Positions 16,869-24,863 of a DNA stretch of 64,000 bases are shown here, piece after piece. Location: positions 186,001-250,000 of the forward strand of contig NZ_JADR01000002.1 in the NCBI RefSeq assembly GCF_000518485.1. Direction: 5' to 3'. This DNA comes from Olleya marilimosa CAM030 (lineage in GTDB: Bacteria; Bacteroidota; Bacteroidia; Flavobacteriales; Flavobacteriaceae). The number at the start of each line of letters is the position of its first letter. Within the stretch, counting starts at the first letter, position 1. The translations under genes and the position numbers were made by a program. The notes under the pieces were generated by a model that saw only the letters and a list, made by a program, of their open reading frames with translations, was not told the origin of the DNA and made no database searches.

Positions 16869-19415
16869 TTATTGATTTTCTAAATATTGGTTTAGATTTT
16901 TATGTATTTGAAGAATTTGATAGTTGTCAGAAGAAATTCCAAAATAAGGTCTATCTATCTTAGGTTTATCTTCTGCCTTTAATATATCTGCAAATCCTTT
17001 TGCACCATCTACACTTTTTAAACCATGAACAACCACAAAAGAGATTTCTGGATTATATACATCCACAGATGTGGATAAATTATAATATTGAATTTTAGGG
17101 GTTACCTCGTCTAACATTTTTTTAAATGTAGCTATCGCTTCAGTGTTATTTTTTTCAAATTGAAACAACACTTTAAAGGACGTAGACTCTGTATTTGGTT
17201 TAAATGTTTTATCACTTACAGATTTTAAACTGTTTACTATGGCTTGCGCCTGAATTGCTTCTGGCATATTAGCAAATGCTAATGCAACATCATTTAATCC
17301 ATCTATATACGCTTGATAACCGTTTAACCTACCATTAGCTGTCGCTTTTAAAAGTGCGAATTTTGCTACTATTGGCTCGCCATCAAAAAACTTAATATAT
17401 TTATTTGACTTTTCAATGACCTGAGCATACTCTTGTTTTTCTAGTAATTTATAGGTTGCTTCATATAGACTTTCCGGACTACTTTCGTCTCTAGTTGCTG
17501 CTAATTCAGGATTTTTTAAAATCTCGGCATACCTAGAACTTGCATAATTAGCTATAATATCTGTTTTAGTTATTTGTGCTTCGTCATTTTGACCTAAAAT
17601 CTCATATATTTTATATAAATTATACTTAGATGGTAAAATTAATTTTTGCTCTGGATTACTTGCTAATAGGTTTAAAAACTTGCTTTTAGATAAATTATAT
17701 TCTTTAAATTTTTCTTTGTAAATCAAACCTAATTGATAATAGGCGTAATTACGTTCTTTTTTAATGCTATCTAACTCTTTTTGTGCTGTAGGTATTTGAG
17801 CTATATAATATTGAGGGTCTAAAAACTCTTGGTCCTGTTCTAAAACTGCTGCTATATCAGGATTGGATTGATTGCCAATTGCGCTTCCGCTTGCAGATGA
17901 CCATCTCCAATCGTCTTGATTTTTACGGTCTCCCCAAATACGAGTAAATTCATTTTTACCATAAGCAACTGTGCTTGGGTTATAAAAATAAAAATTACTA
18001 CCAACACCTGGTAATCCACCTCTTGGCTTAGTGACGTTGTTTGTTGGTAAGTTTGTTGTTGCTAATCCTTTTTTTCTAGCTTCGATTTCTAAACGTTCTT
18101 TTTCTTTTTCAGCTTCTAATTTAAGTTGATTAGTATAGTCTGTAAAAAACGTAACACGATCTGCATCAGACATGTTTACTAGTTTAAGTATACTATCATT
18201 AACTTCGGCTAAGCCTTCATAATAAATAACGTCGTCTAAGTTTTCGCGTTTACGCTTTATAGTACGATATGGTTTACTATTTTCAACCATACTAGTCATT
18301 GTGCTATCAAAATAAGCGCCTGCAACTTTATAGTTGTTTCTATCAAAATAAAAATCGCCTAAAGTCTCATAGTTTTTAGCAATTAAAATTTTATCTGTAG
18401 ATTTTTCTCTTAGTGATTTATTGTAATATACTACTGCTAAGGAATCTGATTTATTAGTTAAATGAAACTCTCCTATTTGGTGATATATCTTATCTAGGTA
18501 CGGACGATTTTCTCGGTTTTTTTCTAATTTGGTTAGGTGCTTTAAAAACGCAATTTTATCACCTTTATCGTAATCAAAATTTTTAGCTTTTTCAATCTGA
18601 GCAGCCATTAAGTAACGACGTGGGATTTTTCGGTTTAAATCTATAACCTCGTCAAATGCGATATTAGCACTATCTTTAAAGGTTAATACATTATAAAGTT
18701 GTCCTTTTATAAAACCAAAACGTCCTTTTTCGTCATTGTTTTTAGTTGCTTTAGCTGCAATTTTTATTTGTGTTAAAGCGCTATCTAAAGCTTTAGTATT
18801 AATGTAGGCTTGTGCTAAAATGGAGGTCGCATCTGCTAACTCTTGACCTTCTAATTCTTCTTGTTCTATTAGACGTTTTAGGTTTTTAATGGCCAACTCG
18901 TCATTTTCTAAACGCATATTGGTTTTTTCTCTCCAAACCTTTGCTGTGTTTATCTTATCTGAAGCAGGATACTTGTAAAGGATATAATTAAAGGCTTCTA
19001 GAGCAGGCACAAAACGTTGATCAAAATATCTAGCTTCTCCTAACAATAAATAGGCTTCATCAATTTGAGGATTATACTCTTTACCTTGAATATTCATCCC
19101 ATGTTTTTGGATGGCTTTTACTGCTTTTTCTTCCGCTTTAGTAAAACTTTCGTTTTTTGATTGTCCTGGTAAAACAATTTCATCACTAACTTGCATACGC
19201 TCGACAGGCAATATGTCCCAATAGTTGTCCTTGTAACCATCGTTAAGACTGTTTTGTCCTTGTTTTAAAGCCTCGTAACCATTAAACAATGCGTTATACT
19301 CTGCAGTAACTGCATGAAAATTACGATTTATAAAACTGTTTTTTTTTCTTGAACAACTAGTAATTGTTGCTAAGATCAAACCAAAAACTATACAAATTTT
19401 TAATGCTATTCTCAA
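16869..19415 (-). CDS. sprE: SprE/PorW-type gliding and T9SS lipoprotein
   Basis: An 848-residue lipoprotein (lipobox near ITSCS, Cys at about residue 21). It begins its mature part with SRKKNSFINRNFHAVTAEYNALFNGYEAL, a stretch I recognise from SprE/PorW. The rest consists of many TPR-like helices, e.g. EAYLLLGEARYFDQRFVPALEAF, with a charged coiled segment near 430-460. In Flavobacterium johnsoniae SprE is needed for gliding and type IX secretion; Porphyromonas PorW is the counterpart. Length matches. It heads the run sprE-bactofilin-atpZ-like, all closely spaced. No other T9SS gene is in the window. Confidence 0.83.
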   Translation of the reverse strand: MRIALKICIVFGLILATITSCSRKKNSFINRNFHAVTAEYNALFNGYEALKQGQNSLNDGYKDNYWDILPVERMQVSDEIVLPGQSKNESFTKAEEKAVKAIQKHGMNIQGKEYNPQIDEAYLLLGEARYFDQRFVPALEAFNYILYKYPASDKINTAKVWREKTNMRLENDELAIKNLKRLIEQEELEGQELADATSILAQAYINTKALDSALTQIKIAAKATKNNDEKGRFGFIKGQLYNVLTFKDSANIAFDEVIDLNRKIPRRYLMAAQIEKAKNFDYDKGDKIAFLKHLTKLEKNRENRPYLDKIYHQIGEFHLTNKSDSLAVVYYNKSLREKSTDKILIAKNYETLGDFYFDRNNYKVAGAYFDSTMTSMVENSKPYRTIKRKRENLDDVIYYEGLAEVNDSILKLVNMSDADRVTFFTDYTNQLKLEAEKEKERLEIEARKKGLATTNLPTNNVTKPRGGLPGVGSNFYFYNPSTVAYGKNEFTRIWGDRKNQDDWRWSSASGSAIGNQSNPDIAAVLEQDQEFLDPQYYIAQIPTAQKELDSIKKERNYAYYQLGLIYKEKFKEYNLSKSKFLNLLASNPEQKLILPSKYNLYKIYEILGQNDEAQITKTDIIANYASSRYAEILKNPELAATRDESSPESLYEATYKLLEKQEYAQVIEKSNKYIKFFDGEPIVAKFALLKATANGRLNGYQAYIDGLNDVALAFANMPEAIQAQAIVNSLKSVSDKTFKPNTESTSFKVLFQFEKNNTEAIATFKKMLDEVTPKIQYYNLSTSVDVYNPEISFVVVHGLKSVDGAKGFADILKAEDKPKIDRPYFGISSDNYQILQIHKNLNQYLENQ

Positions 19416-19561: not shown

Positions 19562-20272
19562 TTAAACTGGATTTACTGTACCAGAAAAATGCGCTTCCAA
19601 CTCTTTTAAAGTTGCTTCGCTAGTTTGTATATCTTTAATTACTTGACCTTTATCTAAGACCACAATACGCTCGCATACATCTGTGACGTGCATTAAATCG
19701 TGACTAGACACTAAAACAGTGACTCCTTTTTTCTCAGCTAAATCCTTAATAATTTGCTTTAATCTAATTTGTGTTGTTGGATCTAAATTAGCAAAAGGCT
19801 CATCCAAAATAATTACCTCAGGATTACCAATTAACGCAGCGACAATACCTGCTTTTTTCTGATTACCTTTACTTAAATCACGAAGGTATTTTTTTTGACC
19901 CAAAATTTCGCCATGAAAAAAGTCTTCAAACTGTGACACTAAATTGTCTACGTCTTGTTTGTTTTGTCCACGTAAATCACCAATAAAATAAAAATATTCT
20001 TCTGGTGTTAAATAGCCAATTAAAAAGCTTTCGTCAATAAAAGCAGACGTAAAGGGTTTCCAATCTTCGCTCTCGTTAACTAATATTCCATTAGTTTTAA
20101 TATAACCAGTAGTAGGTTTAATTAAATCCAATAACAAACTAAAGTACGTTGTTTTTCCTGCACCATTATTACCCACAAGACCAAAACTTTGACCTTTAGG
20201 TATGTCTAAATTAGAAATATTTAAAACTTCGTTTCCGCTATATTTTTTTGAAAGATTTGTTGTTGTTATCAT
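19562..20272 (-). CDS. ABC transporter ATP-binding protein
   Basis: A 236-residue ABC ATPase. Walker A GNNGAGKT is at residues 34-41, the signature is LSKGNQKK, Walker B is VIILDEPFANLDP, and the H-loop is in SSHD. The domain is of the ABC-2/exporter type. It lies 21 bp after the DUF5687 permease-like gene, so the two probably form the transporter. It is the last gene of the PadR-controlled run. The substrate is unknown. Confidence 0.93.
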   Translation of the reverse strand: MITTTNLSKKYSGNEVLNISNLDIPKGQSFGLVGNNGAGKTTYFSLLLDLIKPTTGYIKTNGILVNESEDWKPFTSAFIDESFLIGYLTPEEYFYFIGDLRGQNKQDVDNLVSQFEDFFHGEILGQKKYLRDLSKGNQKKAGIVAALIGNPEVIILDEPFANLDPTTQIRLKQIIKDLAEKKGVTVLVSSHDLMHVTDVCERIVVLDKGQVIKDIQTSEATLKELEAHFSGTVNPV

Positions 20273-20293
20273 AGTTAAAAAGTTTTGTAAATA

Positions 20294-21772
20294 TTAATTG
20301 TCTTGGTTAAATGCTTTTATCATTTCATACTTAGAGTCTAAGTACTTATTGGTAATAAAGCGCATGATTTTTTGATGAAAAATAATTCCGATAACTCCTA
20401 GTAGTATTAACGCAGATATACCTGCATAAAAACTAACAAAATGAGATAATAACCCAAAAATAGCCAATGGTAAAAGTAACAATGGAATACCAATTAACCA
20501 TTGTACTGCTCCTGTACCCTGAAAGTTAAAAGCTGCACGTTGATTTAAGTCTATTTTTTTTCGATTAAAAGATCCACCAAGCATTATAACATAACTATTA
20601 ACACCTATGTTATACACTGCTGCTGCAAAATGTGCAACTAAGATTTTCCAACCAAAATAGACATAAGGAATACTTAGTACAAACATGATAATAACACTAA
20701 GGACCATTAAGGTGTATTTAGATTTTAAATATTGTTCATACTTAATATTTTGGCTCATTAACATTTTGTAATATCCACTATCCCAAGCCGGAATAAATTG
20801 CCCAAAATTAATTAAGAAAATACCAGTCACAAATACACCAATAAAACCATACATAATTGGCATGTCTCTGTATATTGGTTGTGGGTAAAAAAACAAACCA
20901 TATAATAATCCAAATACCAACATAAAAACAGCAGACCTTGGACGTTTGTTTCTCCAAATTAATTTTAAATCTAATTGCATAAAAGGTGCACTATCACCAA
21001 AACGCTTGGTCCATCCTAAATCTGAAGTGGTCACCTCTTTAATTTTTGTTTTAAGTGAATGGTCTAAGTATAATTTTTTAATTAATATTTTATGATTAAA
21101 CAGATATAAACCAATTAAAATTACAATCAAAATTAGCAGTAATAATGGATTGTTAACTATGGCTAACATAGCTGTAGACAAAGCACCTGAAATATTAATA
21201 ATATTAAAATAGTTAAGTCCAAATAACGTACCAGCAAATATGATTATTGGTAGAAATGACAATTCTGTTTCTGCAGAAAAACTTTCAATAATAAAATTTA
21301 AAAAATTATTAATTAGGGTTAGTAAAATCATAGCAGCAGCCCAAGTCATTACGGTTGCTAGTTGATAATCCTTAGTAATAAGGATAATACTAAAAGGTAT
21401 TATAGCAAAAAGGGGTAAAAAATTAAAAAAGGATACTGCAGATTTTCCTAAAACAAAATGCACAATACTACTTCTTTTAATGGGTATGGTTAGCAAAGGT
21501 TTGACACTCATTACTGGTAATTTTTGAAGAAAAAAACGCAATAATAAATCGCCTAAAAACCAAAAAAAGATAAATCCATTAACCACAATAAAAGGGTCTT
21601 GATCCGGAAAAGTTTTCTGTAAAATTGGATATAATCCAAAGCCTAATGCTAAAAACACTAAAATAAAGTATAACGCAAAAAAGCCCATGACAATCTTTAT
21701 TGCTAAGCTTTTACCAAAGCTTGCCGAGCGAATAAATGACTTCCACTCTAAGCTTAAAAATTTACTAATCAT
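20294..21772 (-). CDS. DUF5687 family membrane protein (ABC permease-like)
   Basis: A 492-residue polytopic protein with roughly 11-12 membrane segments. The N-terminal FLSLEWKSFIRSASFGKSLAIKI and central SAPFMQLDLKLIWRNKRPRS are the two amphipathic repeats seen in ABC-2-like permeases. I recognise it as DUF5687, a Bacteroidota family regularly paired with an ABC ATPase, as here. Transport function is inferred from the pairing. It lies 53 bp after the last of the four paralogues. Confidence 0.8.
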   Translation of the reverse strand: MISKFLSLEWKSFIRSASFGKSLAIKIVMGFFALYFILVFLALGFGLYPILQKTFPDQDPFIVVNGFIFFWFLGDLLLRFFLQKLPVMSVKPLLTIPIKRSSIVHFVLGKSAVSFFNFLPLFAIIPFSIILITKDYQLATVMTWAAAMILLTLINNFLNFIIESFSAETELSFLPIIIFAGTLFGLNYFNIINISGALSTAMLAIVNNPLLLLILIVILIGLYLFNHKILIKKLYLDHSLKTKIKEVTTSDLGWTKRFGDSAPFMQLDLKLIWRNKRPRSAVFMLVFGLLYGLFFYPQPIYRDMPIMYGFIGVFVTGIFLINFGQFIPAWDSGYYKMLMSQNIKYEQYLKSKYTLMVLSVIIMFVLSIPYVYFGWKILVAHFAAAVYNIGVNSYVIMLGGSFNRKKIDLNQRAAFNFQGTGAVQWLIGIPLLLLPLAIFGLLSHFVSFYAGISALILLGVIGIIFHQKIMRFITNKYLDSKYEMIKAFNQDN

Positions 21773-21825
21773 AGTTGTTATTGTTTGGTTGGTTTAATAG
21801 ATAAGTATACAAATGTGCAAAAATG

Positions 21826-22515
21826 TTACAAACAAAATTCTGGATAGGTCTGGTTTAAAAGTTGTTCTGCTTTGTTTGGTATAACTTCAAAACTAATATA
21901 CATCCAAAGACAAAACAGTGTAGAAAAAATAGACACACCCAAAACAATGTAAGGATAACTAAAAATATTCCCAGAAAAATTATACCATTGTGGCAGCTGA
22001 GTGAGTAAAACTATTGCTGAAGCTCCTGCTTGTTTAAATATTATTTCTTCTAACATCCATTTTTTATTGGACAGCGCTTTACGCTGTTTAAATTGTTTTT
22101 TTAGTTGTATGCTTTTATAGATTACAAAAACACATATTAGAACATAAAACCCTATTAAAAATGATTTTGCTAAAACAGAAGATAATGACATATAGATAAT
22201 CAAAAACAAAGCAATAGTTGATATTAACTTAGGAAACGTGAACCACTGTTTTAATTCTGCCCATAAATACATTATGTAACGTTTATTCATTGCTTTTTGA
22301 CGACGTTCTAACACGTCCATAAAACCAAAGACTCCAAATTTTTTGAAGGCTTGGTCTCTAGCCTCTTCAAACGATATATCTGGTTGAGTTTGCCATACAG
22401 ACTCTATATCGTTTGCTAAGTGATCTACTAACTCGGTTTGTAAATCATAATGCTCAACGTAGTGTTGTCTTGTAAAGGCGTATAGGTTTTGTATTTGAGG
22501 TTGGGTTAACTTCAT
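21826..22515 (-). CDS. PadR-cassette membrane protein, paralogue D
   Basis: A 229-residue protein. The N-terminal soluble domain of about 70 residues has the pattern shared by all four paralogues: LTxxxIQ, then HYDLQTELVDHLANDIE. A charged linker follows, and then about four membrane helices (near FPKLISTIALFLIIYM, IGFYVLICVFVIYK, AGASAIVLLTQL and YPYIVLGVSIFSTLFCLW). The N-domain resembles in style the HAAS/DUF1700 domain of PadR-associated membrane proteins, though I cannot confirm homology. It lies 5 bp after paralogue C. Function unknown. Confidence 0.75.
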   Translation of the reverse strand: MKLTQPQIQNLYAFTRQHYVEHYDLQTELVDHLANDIESVWQTQPDISFEEARDQAFKKFGVFGFMDVLERRQKAMNKRYIMYLWAELKQWFTFPKLISTIALFLIIYMSLSSVLAKSFLIGFYVLICVFVIYKSIQLKKQFKQRKALSNKKWMLEEIIFKQAGASAIVLLTQLPQWYNFSGNIFSYPYIVLGVSIFSTLFCLWMYISFEVIPNKAEQLLNQTYPEFCL

Positions 22516-22520
22516 TAAAA

Positions 22521-23198
22521 TTATAATATTTTATATTGATAATACAATGATTTTTGGTCTTTGTAGATTTTTCTTGACACAACTTCTGACGCAATACAAA
22601 ATAGAAAAGAAATCACCCACAAAACAATAAACCAAAGTGCGCCTTGACCTTCAATTAAACTTGATTTAAAAAGTGTTAGAGATAAACTAAATAACTGAGC
22701 CAACAGGTTTACAAACTGTGAAACGGATTGCATATAACTTAATGACAAATGTTTTTTATTGTCTATTGTTTTACGTCTATAAGACCACCAAAATGAAAGA
22801 ATAGTGAAAACAAATAATACACCTACTAAACTGAATAAAAAGTTTTCTTTATTCTCCAAAACTTTATACAAACTTACCAACACATACATTAAAGCTACTG
22901 TAATAATAATTTTAGGTAAGCTAAAAAAAGACAACAAATACTTAAACACCCTTTTATAGAAAGATTTTTCAATTTGCTTAGTTCTATTAGTTATTAACGG
23001 TTTGAAGCCTTTAGTCCCAAAAGCTATCTTCGCTTTTGTTACTGCATCCTCAAAAGGCAACTTTGGATTGTCTTCTAAAATTTGAGCAGTAGCGTTAGCC
23101 AAATGATCCACCAATTCGATTTTCAAATCAAACCATTCTATTCCGCTTTTTTCAACGTAGGTATCTATGTATTGTATTTGTTCTTTGGTTAACTTCAT
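22521..23198 (-). CDS. PadR-cassette membrane protein, paralogue C
   Basis: A 225-residue protein with the same plan as its neighbours: an N-domain with LTKEQIQYIDTYVEKSGIEW and ELVDHLANAT, an acidic/aromatic middle, and about four membrane helices. The segment LSFFSLPKIIITVALMYVL parallels the FPKLISTIALFLIIYM helix of paralogue D, so the two are the closest pair. Spacing is 3 bp to paralogue B and 5 bp to D. No catalytic motif is visible. Confidence 0.75.
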   Translation of the reverse strand: MKLTKEQIQYIDTYVEKSGIEWFDLKIELVDHLANATAQILEDNPKLPFEDAVTKAKIAFGTKGFKPLITNRTKQIEKSFYKRVFKYLLSFFSLPKIIITVALMYVLVSLYKVLENKENFLFSLVGVLFVFTILSFWWSYRRKTIDNKKHLSLSYMQSVSQFVNLLAQLFSLSLTLFKSSLIEGQGALWFIVLWVISFLFCIASEVVSRKIYKDQKSLYYQYKIL

Positions 23199-23201
23199 TA
23201 T

Positions 23202-23825
23202 CTAGATAATATTTTTTGAGTACTCTAAAATCTTATTCTTTTTGTTACGCAACTCGATTGCTCCTGCTATGTTAAATAAAACTGCAAAAAACCAAAAGGT
23301 GATAAAAAAATATTGATTTTCTAACCATGGTTTAGCTGCTCCCATAGTGTATAAAAATAAAGAAGGTAAAGCCATTATTGAATATAAAGGCTGTGCCATT
23401 TGCAACTTTTTAAAGGTTTTATGATGTGAATATCCAGCAATCAGCGCCCAAAAATGTATAGTTGAAAGACTAACTACAAGAACAATAATTGATGTCTTGT
23501 TTGGTTGCAACTTTTGCATCCAATAAACCAAAAATCCCAACATTAATGTAAAAGGCATATAGTTAGGCTTATAAAAAAACATAGCTAAACGTCGCCACAT
23601 TTCTCTTTGATAACTCCAATGGATTGTTTTTTGACGTTTCTTTTCAAAATCTTGAATAAAATCTATTTTAGATTTAAGATAATCTTCTAACTGTTGGTTT
23701 TTATTAGATGCTTCAAAATCTGAAGCTAAATGATCAATAAGCTCCAATCTAACATCTACATACTTTACCTTAAGTTTAATTAGGTAATTATCAATTTGGT
23801 TTATATTTTCTTCGGTTAAGCTCAT
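23202..23825 (-). CDS. PadR-cassette membrane protein, paralogue B
   Basis: A 207-residue member of the tandem family: LTEENINQIDNYLIKLKVKYVDVRLELIDHLAS at the N-terminus, then a helical linker and about four membrane helices. Its linker is shorter than in the others because the DAxxKA segment after the N-domain is reduced. It ends with a short basic cytoplasmic tail. Co-transcription with its neighbours is nearly certain given gaps of 2 and 3 bp. Confidence 0.74.
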   Translation of the reverse strand: MSLTEENINQIDNYLIKLKVKYVDVRLELIDHLASDFEASNKNQQLEDYLKSKIDFIQDFEKKRQKTIHWSYQREMWRRLAMFFYKPNYMPFTLMLGFLVYWMQKLQPNKTSIIVLVVSLSTIHFWALIAGYSHHKTFKKLQMAQPLYSIMALPSLFLYTMGAAKPWLENQYFFITFWFFAVLFNIAGAIELRNKKNKILEYSKNII

Positions 23826-23827
23826 TC

Positions 23828-24478
23828 TTAAACAAGTTTTTTATATTCCTTTTCATAGTTTCTCATAATACTAACAGCTGTTTTTACAAACGCATAAATC
23901 AGTGTACATGATATTGCAAACACTCCTGCTGCAATCCATTGACCACTTTCTGATTCAGCTTGATACTTAGTTAATAAATGCAAAGCATTAACCACTTGAA
24001 ACAAAAACACATATACCAATCCAATACGCTCTACACCAGAAAATCGATCATAATTAAATACCCTTAATACAACCAAGTAAACAATTCCTAAGACAATAAA
24101 GAACAGCAATGGAAAACTAAAAATAGCAGTCTCAATGGTTTCAAAACCAAAATTATTAATAAATAAACGAGCGCTAATTATGACACCTAAAAACACTAAA
24201 AGACTATTAATGGTTAGCATATTTATCCAAATTAGTTTCAATAAATTATTGTAAGTGTTTCTTAAAAAACCCTCATTATCCTGTAACAATCTAGCTTTAT
24301 TACAAACCATATAGGCTTTAAAAGCATCATAAAAAGACAATTCATTGCTTAACTCTAATTCAGCCTCTAATGCAGAAGCAATGTGGTCCACCATTTCCAT
24401 TCTAATATCTGCAAAATGGATTTCAGAATTCTCTAAATAAGTATCTATAAATTGTATGTTTTCTTTACTCAACTTCAT
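23828..24478 (-). CDS. PadR-cassette membrane protein, paralogue A
   Basis: A 216-residue member, first after padR, with one base between the padR stop and this start. The N-domain reads LSKENIQFIDTYLENSEIHF, then DIRMEMVDHIASALE. Four or five membrane helices follow (e.g. LIWINMLTINSLLVFLGVII, IFSFPLLFFIVLGIVYLVVL). In PadR/HAAS-type systems such soluble domains are thought to signal between the regulator and membrane partners; that is an analogy, not shown here. Confidence 0.75.
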   Translation of the reverse strand: MKLSKENIQFIDTYLENSEIHFADIRMEMVDHIASALEAELELSNELSFYDAFKAYMVCNKARLLQDNEGFLRNTYNNLLKLIWINMLTINSLLVFLGVIISARLFINNFGFETIETAIFSFPLLFFIVLGIVYLVVLRVFNYDRFSGVERIGLVYVFLFQVVNALHLLTKYQAESESGQWIAAGVFAISCTLIYAFVKTAVSIMRNYEKEYKKLV

Positions 24479-24479
24479 A

Positions 24480-24818
24480 CTAATCCAAACTTAATTTAGG
24501 ATTCATAAACGTTTCCATGGTTTTAATGTAATCCTTAAGTTCCTCCAATTTACTAACCGTTTCTTTATTACCTTTTTCGGTAAGCTTGTAGTATTTACGT
24601 AAACGGTTATCAACTTTTTTGACCTCGACATCTAATAATCCCTCAGCTTCCAGCTTATGCAAAGCAGGATACAAAGCACCTTCGGTAATATTAAGTTCAC
24701 CTTTAGTAATTGCTTTCACTTTTTGCGTCATTTCGTAACCATACATTTTTTCGCTTTCATTTAAAAGCTTTAAAATAATAGTGGTTAGACTACCCTTATA
24801 TAATTTTGAATTTGCCAT
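24480..24818 (-). CDS. PadR family transcriptional regulator
   Basis: A 112-residue winged-helix repressor of the small PadR type: SLTTIILKLLNESEKMYGYEMTQKV is the N-terminal wHTH start, TEGALYPALHKLEAEGLL the recognition helix, and LRKYYKLTEKGN the wing. I take the start as the Met at 24818 (MANSKLYKGSL). A longer frame reaches 24848, but a -7 box at 24823-24830 and the 36-bp palindrome lie inside that extension. PadR proteins usually repress their own operon until bound by a ligand. It is the first gene of the seven-gene run down to the ABC ATPase. Confidence 0.92.
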   Translation of the reverse strand: MANSKLYKGSLTTIILKLLNESEKMYGYEMTQKVKAITKGELNITEGALYPALHKLEAEGLLDVEVKKVDNRLRKYYKLTEKGNKETVSKLEELKDYIKTMETFMNPKLSLD

Positions 24819-24822
24819 ATTA

Positions 24823-24830
24823 CAAACATA
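24823..24830 (-). promoter_or_regulatory. -7 box of padR
   Basis: TATGTTTG on the minus strand matches TAnnTTTG and ends 4 bp before the chosen ATG, so the message would be leaderless or nearly so. No TTG is at -33. The box overlaps one end of the palindrome by 3 bp. Confidence 0.5.
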
Positions 24831-24863
24831 CATAATTTTCTTATGCATAATAAACTTATGTAT
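24828..24863. promoter_or_regulatory. 36-bp nested palindrome, likely PadR operator
   Basis: Outer half-sites ATACATAA (24828-24835) and TTATGTAT (24856-24863) are exact complements, and an inner perfect 10-bp palindrome TTATGCATAA (24841-24850) has the same centre. 16 of 18 positions per half are symmetric. It overlaps the padR -7 box and occupies the region where RNA polymerase would contact upstream DNA, as expected for an autoregulatory site. Confidence 0.65.

Follow-up and report, generated by a model that had tools for sequence, protein, structure and literature searches.

A variable-copy array of PadR-linked membrane proteins beside a DUF5687-ABC pair in Olleya marilimosa

Introduction

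Why should a single PadR-type regulator gene head a row of four paralogous membrane-protein genes together with an ABC pair? The question is raised by a locus of Olleya marilimosa CAM030 lying in a 64,000-nucleotide stretch of DNA (the window; positions 186,001 to 250,000 of contig NZ_JADR01000002.1), in which seven minus-strand open reading frames spanning window positions 24848..19562 encode PadR, the membrane proteins P1-P4, a DUF5687 protein and an ABC ATPase. An earlier note on this DNA had described them as a PadR-controlled cassette that might encode a multi-input membrane sensor or a hetero-oligomeric complex.

Several known systems resemble parts of this locus. HAAS-PadR dyads, in which a multi-TM protein with a helical N-terminal domain is always partnered by a stand-alone PadR-like wHTH gene, as in Olleya, are a suggested alternative to two-component signalling (Ravi et al. 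2024, mSystems, PMC11237479), and HAAS fusions to FtsX/MacB permeases have been reported (PMC11237479). In Listeria, the PadR protein LltR represses its own operon, which includes a gene for a DUF1700 membrane protein, by about 100- to 150-fold, while the ABC transporter LieAB is repressed by LftR, LftS not being required for this repression (PMC6624303, PMC4517056). In the literature searched, we found no direct test of communication between a membrane partner and PadR, no description of multi-copy, variable PadR arrays of the kind reported here, and no paper in which DUF5687 is named.

Results

Organisation of the locus

All seven genes are present in the arrangement that the earlier note had given. 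On the minus strand, padR (24480..24818, 112 aa) is followed by P1 (23828..24478), P2 (23202..23825), P3 (22521..23198) and P4 (21826..22515), with gaps of only 1, 2, 3 and 5 bp among these first five genes; 53 bp separate P4 from the DUF5687 gene (20294..21772), and 21 bp separate DUF5687 from the ATPase gene (19562..20272). Directly downstream of the DUF5687-ABC pair lies the T9SS gene sprE/porW (window 16869-19415), a position kept in nearly all loci with a long enough contig. The reported extent of the cassette (19562-24848) agrees with the gene positions except at its padR end: padR probably starts at 24818 rather than at 24848, because relatives begin M[AS]NSKLYKGS there (MANSKLYKGS in the window) and the ten codons ahead of it fall within the predicted operator and -7 box described below.

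PadR passes the gathering cut-off of its family (PF03551; 75.8 bits against 27, E 2.8e-21), and its best NCBIfam model is TIGR03433 (padR_acidobact). The ATPase matches PF00005 far above the cut-off (E 1.8e-21), and the DUF5687 protein is a full-length member of PF18940 (646.7 bits against a cut-off of 33, E 4.5e-194). In its predicted structure (mean pLDDT 75), DUF5687 is a duplicated ABC-2-type permease, with two tandem 6-TM halves (residues 16-239 and 260-482) that align with the CcmB, NosY, ABCG and ABCA folds (Z 10-13); on this model, DUF5687 and the ATPase would together be a complete exporter or flippase.

P1-P4 are paralogues, as the earlier note had proposed, with pairwise local alignment scores 10-27 SD over shuffles. 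None has a significant Pfam or NCBIfam match. Weak Pfam matches to STING_TM and DUF373 were set aside, since they look like generic TM-helix similarity. A Foldseek search of the P4 model against the PDB gave no match at E<=0.001, and profiles of the whole proteins and of the N-domain, searched against PDB sequences, gave chance-level matches only. The predicted structure of P4 (mean pLDDT 85) consists of an N-domain with helices at residues 5-17, 23-43 and 49-58, a linking helix (66-90) and four further helices. A layout of N-domain plus about four helices, as first suggested, is thus borne out by the P4 model, by P1 (four hydrophobic segments in a hydropathy scan) and by P3 (about four), whereas the same scan shows two segments in P2 and two longer, merged ones in P4. 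Four columns of the ELVDHLA motif region (D24, E28, D31 and H32) are invariant across 73 relatives and E38 is nearly so, while within arrays the mean identity is 39.6% in helices 1-2 versus 13.4% in the TM region (54 pairs). Judged from these alignments, the paralogues would combine a common docking part with differing membrane parts.

Copy number varies at a single site

We compared 80 DUF5687 loci with that of the window (81 in all). Where the contig reaches, the usual order is glycosyltransferase – paaE (reverse) – [PadR array] – DUF5687 – ABC – sprE, with the array absent from 46 of the 81 loci and present in 35, of which about 9, 15, 9 and 2 carry one, two, three and four copies, respectively. 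On the DUF5687 tree, there are 18 switches between presence and absence of the array, of which at least 12 fall on well-supported branches, and 28 changes of copy number; the nearest relative of the window (DUF5687 91% identical) has two copies rather than four. A fixed four-subunit complex is not supported by this range of zero to four copies at one site.

The copies do not all behave alike. In the paralogue tree, exporter-proximal copies, the nearly constant class to which P4 belongs, group together (5 changes versus 24 expected by shuffling), and the first and middle array positions are occupied by several classes. P1 belongs to the PadR-proximal class, P2 to a class common to Olleya and two Winogradskyella, and P3 to one that among the loci surveyed otherwise occurs only in Olleya namhaensis; no P1 orthologue was found in the three other Olleya loci. 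O. namhaensis lacks P1, and its first array gene is a P1/P2 chimera: nucleotides 1-40 match P1 of the window at 36/40 and P2 at 28/40, while the following 40 match P2 at 36/40 and P1 at 22/40, a pattern that recombination at conserved 5' ends could explain. The four copies are therefore not a fixed set: turnover affects the copies farther from DUF5687, and the adjacent one hardly varies.

Copies rapidly gained and lost at a constant site, a chimeric gene and diverging TM parts might also mark an immunity or specificity array, in which membrane proteins diversify against bacteriocins or similar toxins and selection drives their turnover. We regard this as improbable: no known defence or phage family was matched convincingly by the paralogues in PADLOC and PHROGs, and no toxin or biosynthetic genes were seen in the flanks examined.

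The N-domain travels with padR

In a family sample of 100 genomes, one per genus, the N-domain was found in 26. A padR gene lies within about 170 bp upstream of the N-domain cluster in 30/30 assessable clusters, that is, those whose contig permits the check; two more N-domain matches lie at contig ends. The domain is thus PadR-associated, as the earlier note had supposed. One orphan N-domain protein, from outside the family sample (L184:4381-5109, G053:C2), has no padR nearby and has lost the DH motif (AKDL). The linkage extends to other architectures, with the N-domain fused to an ADOP-like MacB/FtsX permease of about 900 residues beside padR in two Bacteroidota outside the family (L174:5802-8498 and L175:4700-7411); in G045, the N-domain sits on a GldL/GldM-like protein. 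At another locus (L172, G225:C590), genes for an ECF sigma factor and a small membrane protein run divergently from a PadR dyad, a layout in which PadR-ECF cross-talk is possible.

The tie to the exporter is looser. DUF5687 occurs in 76/100 family genomes and lies directly downstream of the array in 20 of the 26 array genomes, with one further case split by a contig break. The other five genera have the exporter unlinked or missing: in G206 and G225, array copies stand beside sprE and no DUF5687 was found in the assembly, and in G157, G169 and G179 array and DUF5687 are apart. The survey of gene neighbourhoods thus upholds a strict linkage to padR, but both the four-copy set and the DUF5687 tie are variable. 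These data bear on the proposal, close to the complex of the earlier note, that the paralogues are accessory subunits forming a hetero-oligomer with the DUF5687 exporter. The frequent adjacency to DUF5687 and the MacB/FtsX fusions speak for such subunits; the many DUF5687-ABC pairs without an array, the arrays without or apart from DUF5687, and a copy number that excludes any fixed stoichiometry speak against them. We consider accessory subunits unlikely, and the data do not support a fixed hetero-oligomer tied to DUF5687.

A further alternative is that the paralogues are effectors, with PadR itself binding a small molecule and each membrane protein countering its own agent by protecting or remodelling the membrane. 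G190 retains padR ahead of the DUF5687 exporter without any paralogue, so that PadR may sense ligands itself, and LmrR and similar PadR-type regulators bind drugs directly (PMC4534193). The precedent of Listeria also keeps this alternative alive, as Lmo0600, the DUF1700 protein under LltR, acted as an effector and not as a sensor, its derepression being harmful to growth in the cold, and LftS is dispensable for repression. Such effectors would, however, leave unexplained why the cytosolic N-domain is conserved while the TM part drifts, and why the N-domain is strictly linked to padR in several architectures. We hold this alternative to be possible, though doubtful.

Relationship of the N-domain to HAAS and permease prefix domain 1

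The N-domain had been called HAAS-like, which fits its context and helix order and not its family membership. Ahead of its TM region, the P4 model has three alpha-helices in succession, a trait of HAAS, and a constant stand-alone PadR partner, another such trait, was found in every assessable family cluster. Pfam HAAS (PF22564) is absent from the Pfam matches listed for 73 members and 35 N-domains, and it has no match in P1-P4 or in the whole genome of the window. Profile-profile comparison with HAAS gave probabilities of 6.7% and 3.6%, with a raw score of 16.7 against 9.9 +/- 1.5 (maximum 14.2) for shuffled-column controls. The helix-3 GxP motif occurs in 1/73 N-domain members versus 14/15 of the PF22564-type domains collected, and 34/73 members have FGxxGF in its place. 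With neither a Pfam match nor the GxP motif, we do not file the N-domain as HAAS, which it resembles in gene context and helix order.

By weak match, the N-domain is a distant relative of the NCBI permease prefix domain 1 (NF038403). This model matches 7/35 N-domains with E values of 1 or lower (4.6e-7 for the best), and wherever bit scores are given for relatives (14.7-18.1) they are below the curated cut-off of 30 bits; the P4 N-domain of the window has no match. Within the genome of the window, NF038403 matches a second PadR dyad only (E 0.002, 19.9 bits), whose 143-aa partner protein bridges the window paralogues (profile probability 95.9%) to NF038403. In this dyad (C4; L091:6876-7642), PadR is paired with the 143-aa protein, which combines the N-domain and a GldL-like TM segment. 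A third PadR of the same genome (C1; L095:3249-5439) adjoins a PspC-type protein of 617 aa whose N-terminus is HAAS-like, and PadR proteins of its score class are found in most genomes of the family.

A predicted operator over the padR promoter

Upstream of padR, on the minus strand, lies a predicted PadR operator (24828..24863), ATACATAAG-TTTATTATGCATAAG-AAAATTATGTAT, in which inverted-repeat arms flank the palindrome TTATGCATAA. It overlaps a sigma-A -7 box, TATGTTTG (24823..24830, minus strand; consensus TAnnTTTG, taken from PMC9723704). The operator has the general form ATACmTAAG…CTTATGCATAAG…TTATGTAT and is near-identical ahead of padR in 28/33 array loci (<=6/28 mismatches), compared with 0/1650 shuffles; similar arms occur upstream of several stand-alone PadR dyads. 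No remnant was detected at array-less loci (0/46), and the genome of the window contains no copy besides that at padR (<=3 mismatches). As the pattern occurs only at the padR locus within the genome, autorepression by PadR would be the simplest reading of an operator lying over the padR promoter. The start codon lies a few nucleotides downstream of the predicted -7 box, so that the padR transcript may have little or no leader.

A separate predicted promoter ahead of the exporter

DUF5687-ABC is preceded by a predicted ECF-sigma-type promoter (21801..21831, minus strand), TTGTAACA-N16-TACTTAT, whose -35 box contains the TAA stop codon of P4; array loci in general usually have the final copy's stop codon inside this box. 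The promoter has the form TTTGTAACA-N16-TACTWAT whether an array is present or absent (27/35 and 36/45 loci, respectively), and the strict pattern was found at 63/80 loci versus 0.01 expected in shuffles. A TGTAAC-N16/17-TACTWA element also lies upstream of an ECF sigma gene in the genome of the window (C1:162683-163174) and in most of 30 genera inspected; this gene has a match in 84/100 genomes. Since the same element precedes DUF5687 and the conserved ECF sigma gene, the exporter probably has its own ECF-driven expression, as part of a probable autoregulated ECF regulon including DUF5687-ABC, with read-through from the predicted padR promoter possible. One dedicated promoter for all seven genes is not favoured given this predicted promoter, which weakens the earlier idea of a single transcript.

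Discussion

We tentatively propose, at somewhat less than even confidence, that an array of HAAS-like membrane sensors, variable in copy number and autorepressed through PadR, is superimposed on an envelope-stress ABC-2 exporter. PadR would repress its own operon, and each membrane protein would use the conserved face of helix 2 (D24/E28/D31/H32) to hold or release PadR once its TM part encounters an envelope insult, different for each copy. De-repression would yield more sensors and, via read-through, more DUF5687-ABC, which would expel or flip a harmful lipid or amphiphile, while the ECF sigma factor would supply basal, stress-dependent expression of the exporter. PadR binding by the N-domain, TM sensing and exporter induction are the inferred steps of this proposal. 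The array looks like an adjustable sensor set that acts on a single switch, and less like an invariant machine of four parts, and of the two possibilities first raised for the locus, one regulator with several inputs is the one that fits.

Several features point to such sensors: the strict padR linkage and the lost DH motif of the orphan without padR, the conserved helices 1-2 against a diverged TM part, the ADOP-like fusions beside padR, the locus-specific predicted operator, the two-promoter layout, the modelled DUF5687 fold and, from Listeria, the precedents of LltR autorepression and LftR control of an ABC transporter. Against them stand G190, with padR and no paralogue, the lack of a formal match to HAAS, the loose tie to the exporter and, by analogy, the Listeria proteins LftS and Lmo0600. 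A more far-reaching version, which we would put forward with less assurance, is that swappable sensors sharing one PadR-docking domain undergo gain, loss and recombination via conserved 5' ends, so that the input repertoire of one repressor evolves cassette-like and the exporter comes under dual PadR and ECF-sigma control.

PadR-HAAS dyads have already been described; judged from the literature searched, what would be new is the multi-copy, variable-copy array beside DUF5687-ABC. Like HAAS, the Olleya-type N-domain is also fused to FtsX/MacB permeases elsewhere. Unlike HAAS-PadR dyads, the array has no Pfam HAAS match, no GxP, several paralogues per PadR and a copy number that varies at a single site. 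The NF038403, ADOP permease (TIGR03434) and padR_acidobact (TIGR03433) models show likeness in N-domain and PadR, but the Olleya N-domain sits on small 4-TM proteins and not on the permease. PadR autorepression of a membrane-protein operon and control of an ABC exporter, both presumed in Olleya, recall LltR-Lmo0600 and LftRS-LieAB, whereas Listeria has one membrane protein per PadR and the exporter at another locus. Other DUF5687-ABC pairs are usually without an array, unlike that of Olleya.

With one PadR, one predicted operator and one to four partners, the array is a natural setting for communication between membrane partners and PadR, and it comes with natural knock-outs, a natural chimera and D24/E28/D31/H32 as a candidate interface. 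It also places DUF5687, the undescribed Flavobacteriaceae exporter next to a T9SS gene, in a regulatory context.
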